A stretch of DNA of 46,083 nucleotides from Prochlorococcaceae cyanobacterium ETNP18_MAG_14 (lineage in GTDB: Bacteria > Cyanobacteriota > Cyanobacteriia > PCC-6307 > Cyanobiaceae): NCBI GenBank assembly GCA_030741055.1, contig JASLWC010000004.1, forward strand, positions 1 to 46,083. The letters are read 5' to 3'. Numbering within the stretch: position 1 is the stretch's first letter; each line of letters begins with the position of its first letter. Shown piece by piece: positions 1 to 46,083 of this stretch. The notes under the pieces were generated by a model, which saw nothing but the letters and a program-made list of their open reading frames with translations, searched no databases and was not told where the DNA came from. Both the position numbers and the translations under genes were made by a program.

Positions 1-94
1 CTAACGGGGGATAGGTATCACTCTAACTTTCGCAACGATCACGGGGGTTCTAATTATCGCGACCATGTTGCTTAAGGTAGTACTTAAGCGAGGG

Positions 95-277
95 ATGCCG
101 CTATTGAACAAGCTCAAGCTCAACGAACTGCTCGATCAAGAGCTTTCTACTCAAGAGCTAGTTACTATTACTGGCGGTAAGGGTAGGAAACCCCACAATA
201 AGAATACAGTAAAAGTTTGGAGAGATAAATATGGCATCGTGCACCAAGAAGCCAAATTTGTGCAGACCAATTATTAA
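95..277 (+). CDS. Short peptide with double-glycine (C39-type) leader, putative bacteriocin/microcin precursor; ORF track starts at 65, ATG at 95 is preceded by a purine-rich GCGAGGG
   Basis: MPLLNKLKLNELLDQELSTQELVTITGG | KGRKPHNKNTVKVWRDKYGIVHQEAKFVQTNY; leader has the LSxxELxxIxGG pattern; basic core without Cys. Confidence 0.6.
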   Translation: MPLLNKLKLNELLDQELSTQELVTITGGKGRKPHNKNTVKVWRDKYGIVHQEAKFVQTNY

Positions 278-39313: not shown

Positions 39314-41536
39314 TTAGGCCACTTCTGCCAAGAGAAGTTGGTATGGAGAATCGTTGATAGCGGCCATTTCTTCATGGCGGCCTTGTTGAACAACTCTGCC
39401 ACTCTCAAGAACCAGGATCAGGTCTGCATCACGGATTGTGCTTAGGCGATGGGCCACGATGATTTGGGTGCAGCCACGGCGTCGAAAGGCTTCGTCTACC
39501 AGGCGCTCTGTTTCGGCATCGAGCGCTGAGGTGGCTTCATCGAGTATCAGGATGCTGGGGTTCTGCACCAAGGCACGAGAAATGTCGAGTCGTTGTCGTT
39601 GACCACCTGAAAGGCTGCGACCTCCTTCGCTTAGCACCGTTTCAAAGCCATCAGGCAGGCCGATAACAGTGTCGAGAATTTGGGCATCTGCTCAGGCTTG
39701 CCGAAGGTCTTGATCTGGAATGTTGTTATTCCAGAGATTGAGGTTTTCGCGAACGCTACATCCATAGAGCTGTACATCTTGTTGAACCATCGCTAGGGAG
39801 CTGACGCTGATCGCTCGCGGGATTTCGCTCAGCGCTATACGGTCGTAAAGGATTTTCCCTTCGGAAGGCATATATAGACCTGCAAGTAGCTTTGCCATTG
39901 TGCTTTTGCCAGAGCCACTACCTCCCACAAAAGCGATCCTTTGGCCGTGTTGGATCGATAGGGATAGGTCATTGATTAGCGGTGGCTTCAGTGGCATATA
40001 GCCGAAGCAAAGGTTTTGAATATCGATTGAGCCTGATAGTCGCTCTCTTCCAGCTTTTCCATCATTCCAGTTCTGTATCTTTGGTGCATTTACAAGTAAT
40101 GGGTCTCGAGGCTGTTCAAGAACATCTTCTAGGCGGAGCACTTCGGCTTCAAAGTCTGGCAGGCTTTGCACGAAGGTAATCACTTTTTCGATTTCAGCTT
40201 TTAGGTTGCCGGCAATTGCTTGGGCTGCCAGCAGCATGCCCAGAGTTAGCTGGCCTTTAATCACCAGGAAAAATCCAATTAACAAAATTGCCACCTCGTT
40301 CAAGGTGGTCATCGCGCTGGGGACCACCTTGATCCTTGCGTTGAGCAGTTGAAGCTTTTGTGTGATATTGATTAGTCAGCTTTGATAACTCGCGTAGCGC
40401 CTGAAAATGTCGTTTTCTATTGCTGCTGCCTTCACAGAGTCGATATCTTGTAAGGCGCCTACCACAACTGCATTGGCTTTTGCTCCATCTTTTTGCAGCT
40501 GTTGACTGGCGTCTTTTTGCACTCGAAGGCTAATTGCTACCACGAGGGCATTGATCCCTGTCGTGACGCCTACTAGTAATCCTAAAATGGGGCTGTATAG
40601 CAAAGTCAGCACCAGGTAAAAAATCAGCAGAACAATGCCGGTGAACATTGGAATTAATTCGCCGCCGATGAATTCGGCAATTCGGGCATTGCTACCGACC
40701 CTGCTGGCTATATCTGATGCGTAGCGTTGGGCGTAATACCGCTCCGGTAAGGCCAGAACTTGGTGTTCAAACTGAGCGGCAAAGCGCCGGGTTAGTCGTC
40801 TCTCCAGGGTGCGCCTACCTACGAGTTGAAGATGTTGTAGAACCACCTGCAGGCTTATGATGATTGCCATGCCCCACAACAATGGCTTTAACCAAGTTAG
40901 GAATTGGTTGCCGATGACCTCATCCATATAGATCTGGAGAAAGATCGGCATCACCAGCTGAGGCAGGATCAACAGCAGCCCTGCCAAAAGAATGAATAGT
41001 GCTCCTCTGGGTTCTAGTTTTAAGCGTTGCCAGACAACCGGCCAGACAGTGGGAGCTCTGCCACCTTTTTGAAAGTCTGGAGTTGGCTCCATCGTGAGCA
41101 CGATGCCGGTGTAACTGTTGTCGAACTCTTCGCGACTCACAGTTCGAGGACCTAGAGCTGGATCATTTAGAGCAACCCGATCACCGATGAAACCCTCGAT
41201 AATAAGAAAGTGGTTGAATTCCCAAAATACGATTACAGGTAGTTTGATTTGCTCTAGAGCCAGCAATCCTTTTTTGAATCCCTTGGCTTCGAGTCCTAGG
41301 CTTTTGGCCGCTAGGAGAAGATTGGCCGCATCGCTACCATCACGTGAGACGCCGCAGAGTTCGCGCAGTTGGGTAAGCGGTACATAACGGCCGTAGTGCT
41401 GGAGCATGATGCTGAGGGAGGCTGCCCCGCATTCAGTGTTTTCCAGTTGCAGCACGGTTGGAGTACGTACCCACTTTTTGCTGAGACGAGCTTGAACGCG
41501 AATCCAGAGTTGACGGCAGAAATGTAGTAGGCCCAT
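39314..41536 (-). pseudogene. C39 peptidase-containing ABC transporter (NHLM/LanT-type) with two in-frame TGA codons (40378-40376 and 39694-39692)
   Basis: N-terminal C39 domain (ENTECGAASL, NHFLIIEG, NDPALG), Walker [31 protein letters not shown]; 741 codons in one frame broken only by two TGAs. Confidence 0.85.
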
Positions 41537-41548
41537 GTCTTTTCTCCG

Positions 41549-42667
41549 TCAGTAGATCCCGCTGAGGTCTCTCAACAAGGGGATCACATAACTAATGGGT
41601 CGTCTTTCCTCAACAAGCACGCGCAGCGTTGTTGGGGTGCCGCCTGTTAATTGAAGTTCAGGTCCTTTGCTGTCGCCCCAGTCATAGCCACTAGGTGTTG
41701 TTGGGTCTTTGCGTAAGGAGGTAATCACTTCGATCAACGGACCTTCTTCTTTGGGATTGATAGCCTTGAAAAGCGACTCCTTATTGCCGAGTCGGTTGAT
41801 TACTGCTGCTTTGCTGACTGGTATACGACGCACGCTGAGGATTTCAGCTTCGATGCCACCATGACGTTGTGGTTTGGTTGTTGTTGGGGTCACGCGTACT
41901 CGCTGACCAATGCGAAGACGTTTACCATCTTTGGCGGGGAAGAAGCCCAAGCTTTCGAGTGAATAATTCTCGTTGCTTCGCTCCAGTTCAAATAGTGTTG
42001 CGGCTGGTTGCACTACTTGCCCTAATTGAACGTAGCGGTCAGTAATACAGCCTGCTCTAGGGGCTTTCACTGTCGCCGTTCTTGCCACTTCTTTTTGTAT
42101 GGCGTCAATTTCGCCGCGTTTTTGATCAATCACTCGTTGGCGATCGCCATCACTACTCTCTAAATCATATAAAAGTCTATTGTTGGATTCTTTCTTTGTG
42201 TCCCATTCTTGCTGGGTTAATGCAAATCTAATAGCCTCCCATCGTTTGATTATCTTTTCATCTTCTTTCTTCCGTCGACCAGCCATAATGTCTAAGCGCG
42301 CATCATTGGCAATTAAAAGCTTAAGCTGTTCTTTGGCTTTCTCTTCTTCTAATTCTAGCTTCACTGGTTCAATTAGTGCCAGGGATGTTTCTTGCTTTAC
42401 ACAGTCTCCTACCTTGACCTTTAAATCTTTGATACGGCCACTAGTTTCACTTTGAATTAACTGCAGGCTTTCTGCTCGCAGTAACACTCCAAGTCCTTCG
42501 ATTCTTACGGGTAAACGGCCAAAGATCGACCACAGCAGAATGCTGAGGCTGAATCCCGTCAGTGATATCAGTAAAAGCCAGTAACTAGGCCTTAGCAGTT
42601 GTAGAGGTTGGTCTAGTTGTTCAGGACTTGCCAATGCATCCAGGGCATTCTTTCGGAATAGGCTCAT
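41549..42667 (-). CDS. HlyD-family membrane fusion protein, NHLM bacteriocin-system type
   Basis: Single TM near N-terminus, biotinyl-lipoyl-like segments (LLRAESLQLIQSETSGRIKDLKVKVGDCV, TVKAPRAGCITDRYVQLGQVVQPAATLFEL); TAATG overlap with upstream gene. Confidence 0.9.
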   Translation of the reverse strand: MSLFRKNALDALASPEQLDQPLQLLRPSYWLLLISLTGFSLSILLWSIFGRLPVRIEGLGVLLRAESLQLIQSETSGRIKDLKVKVGDCVKQETSLALIEPVKLELEEEKAKEQLKLLIANDARLDIMAGRRKKEDEKIIKRWEAIRFALTQQEWDTKKESNNRLLYDLESSDGDRQRVIDQKRGEIDAIQKEVARTATVKAPRAGCITDRYVQLGQVVQPAATLFELERSNENYSLESLGFFPAKDGKRLRIGQRVRVTPTTTKPQRHGGIEAEILSVRRIPVSKAAVINRLGNKESLFKAINPKEEGPLIEVITSLRKDPTTPSGYDWGDSKGPELQLTGGTPTTLRVLVEERRPISYVIPLLRDLSGIY

Positions 42668-45498
42668 TAAATCTGCCTCTCCATTAAGCGGGCAAATAAA
42701 CCAGGTTGATTAATCAAACTTTCAAATGTGTCTTGTTGTTGAATTTGGCCCTTTTCCAGCACAATGATGCGATCGGCGTGGCGAATTGTGCTCAGTCGAT
42801 GTGCAATCACCACGCGTGTGATGTCTAGTGCTTCAAGACTGCGACTCACAATCGCTTGTGTGTGGTTATCCAGGGCGCTTGTAGCTTCGTCAAAAATCAG
42901 GATTCGTGGCCGTCGCACTAAAGCTCTGGCGATAGCAATTCGTTGGCGTTGTCCGCCTGAAAGGGTCCCTCCCCCTTCAGAAATAATGGTTTGTAGTCCC
43001 ATTGGCATTTCTCGGATGTCGTCTGCTAGCCCTGCCATTTCCGCTGCGGTCCATGCTTGCTCTTGAGTTATTAAGCATCCTCCTGCTATGGCTTCCATTA
43101 GGTTGCCGCTGAACAGGCTGGTGCTCTGTAGCACTGTGCCAATTTGACGTCTCAAGCTTTCGATACGTAGGCCATTGAGTGGTTGACCGTCGTAGCTGAT
43201 CTCTCCGTTTTCAGGCTTGCTAAATCCCAGCAGCATTCGCACGATTGTCGATTTACCTGATCCTGAGGGGCCTACTAGAGCTAGAAACTCTCCTGGATTT
43301 GCCCGAAAGCTCACTTCATCTAGAACAAGAGGGAGGTCGGGGGCATAGCGATAACTAACGCGGTCGAATTTGATCTCTCCATACAGATCTGTTGGTTCTA
43401 TGGCTTCATCCATCACTTCTGGTGAGGCTGTTAGCAAAGGCTTTGCTCGTTCATAGAGCACAGGCATATCGAATGCTTCCACTGCAAGTCCTGCGAAGCT
43501 GACCATGCTTCCGATAAATGTGGCAAAGGCAGAAAAAAACCCAAGTAATTGGCCAACATTTGGTGCATTCAATGTCGGGCTGTCCGCGGCCTCAGCGATC
43601 AGCTTTGTGATCACGATAAAGAGCAGCAATTGGCCAAGATTGGGCATTACATTCTGCAAGATTTCTGCGGTTGCCTCTTTGATATCCACGGCATTTTCTA
43701 GAGCTATGACGCGTTGGAACTGTTCTCCCCACCATCGAGATGCAGCAGCCTCTGCTCCTGCTAGACGCAATTTCGGTACGGAGCTGATCAGCTCAAGATT
43801 GCGACTTTGGGCTTGGCCTTGCCCCTCCTCTTGTTGGCGTATTAGTGGGCGAGTTTGCATCCCGATCAATGCTGTTGGCAGAAGCACCATCAGCGAGATC
43901 ACGAATGCCAGCAATGTCAGTTTGACGCTTATCTTCAGCATGAACAGCACATAAATGCTGGTGAGCACTACCTTGATTAAGCCCCCTTCCAAGAGTTCTT
44001 GGATTTGATCGCGCAGTTGGGCGATGGAACCAAATCGGAGTGTGATGTCGCCGAGGTTGTATTGACGGAAGAAATCTGTTGGCAGGGTCAGTAAGCGTTT
44101 AATACTGGCCAGCTGGGACTTGGCCCCACCTTTTTGTTGTGTGATCTGTATAGATCGGCTTTGGATCCATTCCAATGCCACTCGTGTCATGCCAGCTGCG
44201 ATCAGAATCAGACCTATTTGTAGTAATAAGCCAAGGTCTCTGTCAGGCAAAGCTGAGTTGGTGATTACGATGTTGAACGTGGGGGTAAGCAAGCCCAGAA
44301 GCGTCGCTAAAAACATCACGCCCACACCTATACGGAAGCCTTCGGTGAGTATTCCTAGGCATGCCCCAGAAGCTAATCCGGTGATACCCATCCCGAAGAT
44401 CCAACGAGCAGCACCAACCTCTCGGCCAATGGCAAGTAGGAAACCTATTGCGATTCCTAGGAGCAGACCACTCATCACAAACTTGGTGAAATTTGTTGGT
44501 TCTCCATAGGCAAAACGCAAAAGCCCTAAGGCTGTTAGATCCTTGGTTTGGAATGTGGGGCTGATGGCTATAACCCTTGGATTCAGTTCTTCCAGCAATT
44601 GGCTGGCTTTAGAGAGTGGTATTGGCTTGGCCATCTGTTCTGGTGCCCAGATCTGATAGCCGTTTGCAGTGGAACGAAGCACAACTGGGCTTATAGGCGT
44701 CTGATCGAGAAAGCCGATGAGGTCGCCACAGTCTTTCTCCAGCAGGCTTTCGTTGAGCAGCACATCCCGTCCGATCAAGTTTGCTGATTCCAGAATCAGC
44801 CTGAGCCGTGCTCGGGGATCAGGAGTATTTCGAACCGGTGCCTTCAGTGGCGCGGAGCCTGGCTGGGTAAGGGTTGCGACGCAAGCTAGAAGTGGGTCTT
44901 CACGAACAGCTGCTTCTAGGGGTAGCGCTTGATTGCTTTGGCTGGCTTTGCCTGCTGTTTCAAAACCAAGAAATAGTTGTGCTTCGCTTTGCGGACTTAG
45001 TGGCTCATGACTGTGTTGTCGTAAGTGGTGCTGTTCCCAGGATTTTTGATGGTGGGCCTCGAGCAGGATGATTAGAGCAGCTTTGCTGGGGGGTTCTTGC
45101 TTAGGGCGATCGGTAAGTTTTTCTAATAGCAAAGCTTGCAGGATTTCCAGGCCTTGTTGTTGCTCTTGATCTGATTTGCTCAGTAACGTGAGCTCACTTT
45201 TGGTGATGGCTTTGAGTCGAAGACGGCTGGAGTCGTTTAGGTCATTGACGTCTAATCCAGGTAGGATTGTGCCTGCTGTCAGGCTTAGAAGGCCAACTCT
45301 TGAATTAAGCGATCCATCTCCAGAGAGTTGTTCGAGGATCAGTCTTACTTCCCCTTCAGCAATCTTGAAAGGATCGCAGGGCCAGGGTCGTTCTTCTCCA
45401 GGTAGAAGTCTCAAGGCATCAACCCTCCTTATCCTGAAACTGTCTGCACAGCCAGTCAAAGCGCAACCCGGCTGAACTGATGGCTGAGAGTTGCTCAA
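42667..45498 (-). CDS. NHLM bacteriocin-system ABC transporter, permease/ATPase (no C39 domain); true start may lie downstream of 45498
   Basis: 943 aa; TM domain, [44 protein letters not shown]. Confidence 0.9.
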   Translation of the reverse strand: MSNSQPSVQPGCALTGCADSFRIRRVDALRLLPGEERPWPCDPFKIAEGEVRLILEQLSGDGSLNSRVGLLSLTAGTILPGLDVNDLNDSSRLRLKAITKSELTLLSKSDQEQQQGLEILQALLLEKLTDRPKQEPPSKAALIILLEAHHQKSWEQHHLRQHSHEPLSPQSEAQLFLGFETAGKASQSNQALPLEAAVREDPLLACVATLTQPGSAPLKAPVRNTPDPRARLRLILESANLIGRDVLLNESLLEKDCGDLIGFLDQTPISPVVLRSTANGYQIWAPEQMAKPIPLSKASQLLEELNPRVIAISPTFQTKDLTALGLLRFAYGEPTNFTKFVMSGLLLGIAIGFLLAIGREVGAARWIFGMGITGLASGACLGILTEGFRIGVGVMFLATLLGLLTPTFNIVITNSALPDRDLGLLLQIGLILIAAGMTRVALEWIQSRSIQITQQKGGAKSQLASIKRLLTLPTDFFRQYNLGDITLRFGSIAQLRDQIQELLEGGLIKVVLTSIYVLFMLKISVKLTLLAFVISLMVLLPTALIGMQTRPLIRQQEEGQGQAQSRNLELISSVPKLRLAGAEAAASRWWGEQFQRVIALENAVDIKEATAEILQNVMPNLGQLLLFIVITKLIAEAADSPTLNAPNVGQLLGFFSAFATFIGSMVSFAGLAVEAFDMPVLYERAKPLLTASPEVMDEAIEPTDLYGEIKFDRVSYRYAPDLPLVLDEVSFRANPGEFLALVGPSGSGKSTIVRMLLGFSKPENGEISYDGQPLNGLRIESLRRQIGTVLQSTSLFSGNLMEAIAGGCLITQEQAWTAAEMAGLADDIREMPMGLQTIISEGGGTLSGGQRQRIAIARALVRRPRILIFDEATSALDNHTQAIVSRSLEALDITRVVIAHRLSTIRHADRIIVLEKGQIQQQDTFESLINQPGLFARLMERQI

Positions 45499-46083
45499 GC
45501 CCCAGCTGTTCGTCGTCGATCATCTTCTCGGCCATCAAGCTTGATTTTGCTAGTCCTCGGCTGAGAAGTTGATCGCGACTGCGTTGGGAGAGCATGCTTG
45601 CTATGCCCTTGTAGAAACGTTTGGCCAGATTTGGATCTGCATTAAGGGTGATTATTAGTTCTTGCTTCTCCAGCACTAGTAGCTCTAGACCGGAGAGCGT
45701 GTCCACATTGGCAGTGGCACCCCCGGCGTTGGGGTTGAGCATTGTCAACTCGCCGAGTAGTTCACCCCGGCGAGAGCTGCCCACTGATCGCCAGCTTCCT
45801 TCTTCGGTGATACTGATCCGGGCTTCCCCTGCGAGTAGTAGATATAGGTTGGGGACATCATCACCTTCTTGAAGAAGAACATCTCCGGCTGCGAGACGTT
45901 GCAATCTGCCAATTTTAGCGAGCCAGCCAACATCCTGTTCTTCTAGTTCTGCGAACAGCACTAGAACCTTGCGAAGGGGTTCTTGGTCATTGCTCGCAAC
46001 ACGGTGAATCCATGCGTTCTGGCCCTGTACTTGGAGGGCTAGTTTTTCAGCGATGACGCGATATAGGAGATGGCCAATGAAAG
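45419..46083 (-). CDS. Cyclic nucleotide-binding-domain protein of the export cluster, 5' end beyond window
   Basis: Frame stays open from the ORF-track start (45961) to the window end: FIGHLLYRVIAEKLALQVQGQNAWIHRVASNDQEPLRKVLVLFAELEEQDVGW...; cNMP fold GDVLLQEGDDVPNLYLLLAGEARISI. Confidence 0.8.
   Translation of the reverse strand, partial: FIGHLLYRVIAEKLALQVQGQNAWIHRVASNDQEPLRKVLVLFAELEEQDVGWLAKIGRLQRLAAGDVLLQEGDDVPNLYLLLAGEARISITEEGSWRSVGSSRRGELLGELTMLNPNAGGATANVDTLSGLELLVLEKQELIITLNADPNLAKRFYKGIASMLSQRSRDQLLSRGLAKSSLMAEKMIDDEQLGLEQLSAISSAGLRFDWLCRQFQDKEG

Follow-up and report, generated by a model that had tools for sequence, protein, structure and literature searches.

A divergent double-glycine-leader precursor gene and an interrupted C39 exporter on one contig of a Prochlorococcaceae genome

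A putative secreted peptide at the contig edge

The window, i.e., the whole stretch of DNA analyzed here (46,083 nt), is the complete contig C85 of assembly G000 (positions 1–46083). The small gene at its left edge probably codes for the precursor of a secreted peptide that is small, basic, and unmodified; the peptide appears to be stranded or decaying in this genome. The leader would direct the peptide to an ABC transporter with a C39 peptidase domain, and this transporter would cleave behind Gly-Gly and carry a core of 32 aa out of the cell. The natural exporter would most likely be the NHLM cassette at 39.3–46 kb of the same contig. Two stop codons interrupt the peptidase-transporter of this cassette, and thus the peptide is probably stranded, barring a working transporter in the fifth of the genome that the assembly lacks. 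From one MAG, in which the gene lies at a contig edge, we infer that this peptide would be cleaved and exported, would stay unmodified, and would act outward, as a signal or as a growth inhibitor. The G000 assembly comprises 1.54 Mb in 140 contigs, with a completeness of 78.8%. Prochlorococcus MIT0701 (G004) and the closed genome G003 (2,410,873 bases) belong to the same genus.

Precursor gene and leader

The features at the left edge of the window were as follows.

95–277, + strand: precursor gene, 60 aa plus stop (start at ATG 95; leader length equal to that of the sisters)
95–178, + strand: leader MPLLNKLKLNELLDQELSTQELVTITGG (independent leader HMM; DNA identity to a sister in G001)
179–274, + strand: core KGRKPHNKNTVKVWRDKYGIVHQEAKFVQTNY, 32 aa, basic, without Cys (translation; predicted structure)
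300–327, + strand: hairpin 3′ of the gene that lacks the form of a canonical intrinsic terminator (folding against shuffles; terminator scan)

The listed open reading frame covered 65–277 (+) and encoded 70 aa from an alternative upstream ATG at 65. The start at ATG 95 (60 aa) was preferred because the resulting 28-aa leader fits the sister leaders of 28–29 aa. The leader ended in ELLDQELSTQELVTITGG, a motif of the LSxxELxxIxGG type terminating in GG, and cleavage is expected after this GG (codons 173–178). In C39 transporters in general, the peptidase domain recognizes the leader of a substrate and cuts after GG during export (PMC6363468, PMC4997328).

A preliminary description had recognized a Cys-free basic peptide with a 32-aa core behind a C39 double-glycine leader, and the sequence was as it described. 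The leader pattern together with an ORF of plausible length occurred once in the window and in 0 of 100 dinucleotide shuffles. A leader HMM built from sister leaders only, with the window sequence left out, matched the window peptide (E = 5.8e-7 in its genome, leader columns 11–29), and positions 121–159 shared 87% DNA identity over 39 nt with a sister in G001. At 28 aa, and with no match to Nif11 in Pfam or NCBIfam, the leader was not of the NHLP/Nif11 type, as had also been stated. The leader also matched the TIGR04149 family (21.5 bits, E = 1.6e-4), which would fit a peptide modified by a radical-SAM-type enzyme. However, the score did not reach the curated cut-off (25) and only the GG leader was aligned; we consider such a modified peptide extremely improbable.

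Promoter evidence for the gene was weak, and the candidate Shine-Dalgarno sequence for ATG 95, a GAGG just 1 nt from the start, was not counted. The hairpin comprised 12 bp with a 4-nt loop, and the region 270–350 folded at −25.2 kcal/mol (z −2.2; 5 of 200 shuffles were as good). The strong hairpin of the preliminary description was real, but it was not terminator-like: a T-tract was absent after 300–327 and the terminator scan was negative. The Rfam search of the window edge gave no match. No immunity gene was evident from 278 to ligA, and the left side ends at the contig end. On the + strand, frame 1 of positions 1–75 read LTGDRYHSNFRNDHGGSNYRDHVA and then a stop, 19 nt before ATG 95. This stretch may be the 3′ part of a further small peptide gene; it had no match among the sister-family loci compared.

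Sister genes: a shared leader before variable cores

The search for sister peptides proposed in the preliminary description was productive: the same leader was found before unrelated cores in G000 itself and in G001, MIT0701, UW105, and G328. Within the genus, the peptides returned had ELLDQEL in common and differed in their cores. A short-leader HMM (22 sister leaders, the window left out) had hits in 12 of the 400 genomes of the family. Marine picocyanobacteria (Prochlorococcus and Synechococcus) hold dozens of such sisters: MIT0701 had about 25 copies, the closed genome G328, which belongs to another genus, had at least 17, and G000 had four including the window gene, the others being C22:27965, C47:4519, and C47:4829. 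Among 16 members in MIT0701, mean identity was 80% over the upstream 100 nt, 74% for leader residues, and 6% for core residues. In these alignments, a fixed leader joined to a hypervariable core is the pattern familiar from prochlorosins.

A conserved block of ~100 nt, containing TTCACCAGAAGGGCTGTGATCTTGAAGGAGTCGAGGGGGCAACACCCCC, preceded the ELLDQEL leaders in two genera and was seen at L036, L041, L111, and L174–L183 (MIT0701, UW105, and G328). It held a small GGGGG/CCCCC hairpin, whose length varied, and the block gave no match in Rfam.

Selection could be followed at a sister locus. The members on contig C22 of G000 (L100 5966–6187) and contig C29 of G001 (L093 5001–5219) were orthologous by their neighbors and shared a core of the form KGFSY...EYEKYF. 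The dN/dS of this pair was 0.10 for the core and 0.45 for the leader, so the core was more conserved than the leader. This indicated purifying selection on the core, and thus that this core at least is a functional product. A third KGFSY-type core stood after a different leader in MIT0701 (C18; L035 784–972), and 0 of 2000 shuffles scored equally. No orthologue of the window gene was found, so the selection figure covers the sister locus only.

The window gene resembled its sisters only from base ~121. The N-terminal half of its leader reads MPLLNKLKLN, vs. MTTxNTDYNNT in the sisters, and the DNA upstream was unrelated to their ~100-nt conserved block. Because this block was absent, the window copy was called divergent and not typical. 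Positions 1–643 showed no synteny with MIT0701, G002, or G003, in which alignment began at 643–649; the contig of G001 begins at window position 999 and fell outside this comparison. The gene lies <100 bases from the contig end in a non-syntenic block; with the sisters' upstream block and N-terminal leader half also missing, the copy may be misassembled or dead. If dead, the gene would be part of a leader joined by recombination to unrelated DNA, and would be unexpressed or non-functional. The late onset of the likeness, the unrelated upstream DNA, the contig edge, the missing orthologue, and the weak promoter evidence all point this way. However, the frame was intact, the start gave the usual leader length, the GG was correctly placed, and the basic core was of ordinary length with a predicted beta-hairpin. 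We therefore consider a dead remnant unlikely and prefer a precursor of a secreted peptide.

Core peptide

The core was basic (6 Lys, 2 Arg, and 2 His vs. 1 Asp and 1 Glu) and contained no Cys, so lanthionine rings are impossible. Single-sequence AlphaFold predicted a helix for the leader and a beta-hairpin for the core (precursor residues 38–54, block pLDDT 91) in a model of low overall confidence (pLDDT 65, pTM 0.27).

No core homologue was detected in the 400 family genomes; the sole match was weak (44%, E = 0.018) and lay inside a 423-aa frame. The preliminary description had named conservation of the whole ORF as a cytosolic protein without GG constraint as the finding that would speak against a secreted peptide, and what was found instead was a core without homologues behind a leader that recurs. 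The whole window peptide had no relative among genome contigs and viral contigs, the sister-leader alignment had no match in viral contigs, neither the window peptide nor a sister peptide had a match in the phage collection, and the PDB sequence search gave no match. Kinship of the window core with the KGFSY core of the C22 sister was rejected, as 821 of 2000 shuffles scored equally well.

Core DNA at 188–251 aligned in frame with L190–L194 of other Prochlorococcus at 75–81% identity (44.6 bits; chance expectation ~0.02, a rough extrapolation from shuffles). The matched segment is part of a large RNase R-like protein, with KPHNKNTVKV in the window and KPDNKNIVKV in that protein. The match came from a broad search, and thus an RNase R origin of the core is treated as a lead only. 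It is conceivable, though we hold it very unlikely, that the leader and, in most sisters, the upstream block act as a portable export cassette that would capture new cores, even fragments of housekeeping genes.

Exporter cassette and its probable decay

The right end of the window carried four genes of an exporter cassette.

39314–41536, − strand: NHLM-type C39 peptidase/ABC transporter (TIGR03796; 991.7 bits, 2 TGA)
41549–42667, − strand: HlyD-like adaptor belonging to this cassette (TIGR03794; 239 bits, over cut-off)
42667–45498, − strand: second ABC transporter in this cassette (TIGR03797-like; 638 bits, curated cut-off 709 not reached)
45419–46083, − strand: bacteriocin-transport-associated cyclic-nucleotide-domain protein (TIGR03896; profile match), running off the window

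The TIGR03796 transporter is the likely cognate exporter of the peptide, judging from its distribution among genomes. It was found over cut-off in 24 of the 400 family genomes and in 10 of the 12 that were positive for the short leader (Fisher p = 4.7e-12); with strict ELLDQEL matches it was present in 5 of 7 genomes (p = 1e-5). Both p-values are too small because the test ignores relatedness; the overlap covers several genera. The peptide-positive genomes without a transporter over cut-off were G001 and G334; in G001 a C39 gene was not seen, and its contig ends inside the cassette. The distance from the cassette to ligA was 50–57 kb in G003 and MIT0701 and ~37 kb in the window.

In the window, the TIGR03796 gene was interrupted by in-frame TGA codons at 40376–40378 and 39692–39694, so the broken C39 transporter noticed earlier at ~39 kb from the peptide gene was indeed broken. 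The assembly yielded only one further C39-like transporter, on contig C77. It was of the long type and carried Ser and Arg at the positions of the catalytic Cys and His, so it should not cut the leader. With the cognate-type transporter broken and the C77 protein lacking catalytic residues, export in G000 appears doubtful. The search for LanC in the G000 genome gave no match.

The peptide might nevertheless be active and exported, if a working C39 transporter lay in the absent part of the genome or if the TGA codons were consensus errors. The completeness of 78.8% leaves room for such a gene, and other members of the genus had intact TIGR03796 genes, some together with a second C39 transporter. 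However, the stops stood at two separate single positions of a gene that was otherwise full-length. A sister of the same lineage, C47:4829 of G000 (L114 2330–2416), also had an in-frame TGA in its leader, and the same TGA was found in C3 of G001 (L115 2573–2659). The identical codon in two assemblies indicated a real pseudogene, which suggested real decay of the system. We regard an active, exported peptide as possible but doubtful, and a stranded or decaying precursor as the better explanation. A genome that retains a peptide gene while its exporter is broken offers a natural experiment on how such a system gets lost and on the transporter that the library depends on.

Comparison with known systems

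Prochlorosins, the Nif11-leader lanthipeptides, form the well-known hypervariable secreted-peptide library of picocyanobacteria. The short-leader family occurs in the same genomes and shares with them a conserved leader, hypervariable cores, and a GG site; it forms a parallel, little-described library that tracks the same exporter type. In contrast to prochlorosins, the window leader has 28 aa instead of ~65, and this member, with no Cys in its core, cannot be a lanthipeptide.

The window cassette resembles the Group V/NHLM export clusters of cyanobacteria (PMC3140520, PMC2887384) in its short C39 transporter, HlyD, second ABC transporter, and CAP-domain protein. Unlike in those clusters, the precursor is ~39 kb away and does not adjoin the cassette, and stop codons break up the C39 gene. 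EbfG1-4 and PteB of Synechococcus elongatus PCC 7942 are likewise small GG-motif proteins of a cyanobacterium exported by a C39 transporter (PMC4997328); the likeness concerns the GG motif and the type of export, with no core similarity claimed, and the exporter in the window, unlike theirs, is broken.

The earlier interpretation as a class II-like microcin or signaling peptide stood in part. Like the class II microcins of enterobacteria, the window peptide would be unmodified and has a double-glycine leader, a likeness drawn from sequence only. The double-glycine leader agreed with this interpretation, but assignment to a microcin class would be tentative; no immunity gene was evident from 278 to ligA.

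Short-leader GG precursors of picocyanobacteria outside NHLP and Nif11 were already recognized in a survey (PMC3140520). Of the kinds that have a name, CCRG-2 peptides and GG peptides such as EbfG come nearest to the window peptide. PMC8120280, citing Aharonovich and Sher (2016), describes the CCRG-2 peptides, a RiPP family, as small peptides that Prochlorococcus and Synechococcus secrete. They are like the window family in their short double-glycine leader, variable core, and host organisms. With the CCRG-2 model NF033456 (cut-off 24), a G003-type sister passed at 24.5 bits, two typical ELLDQEL sisters scored below the cut-off at 19–21 bits, and the window peptide had no match at E up to 10. 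By these profile comparisons, the window peptide is a new member, and a divergent one, of a kind of secreted precursor that is already known; it is not CCRG-2 according to the model, and it is not a prochlorosin.

A second short-leader family, PKENEEINEELSTDELKSVSGG, was observed at L118 1957–3870 (MIT0701), L044 and L046 (G003), and L048 (G002). Its core was partly conserved, since the motif GSGSGxTLKDWK recurs there.
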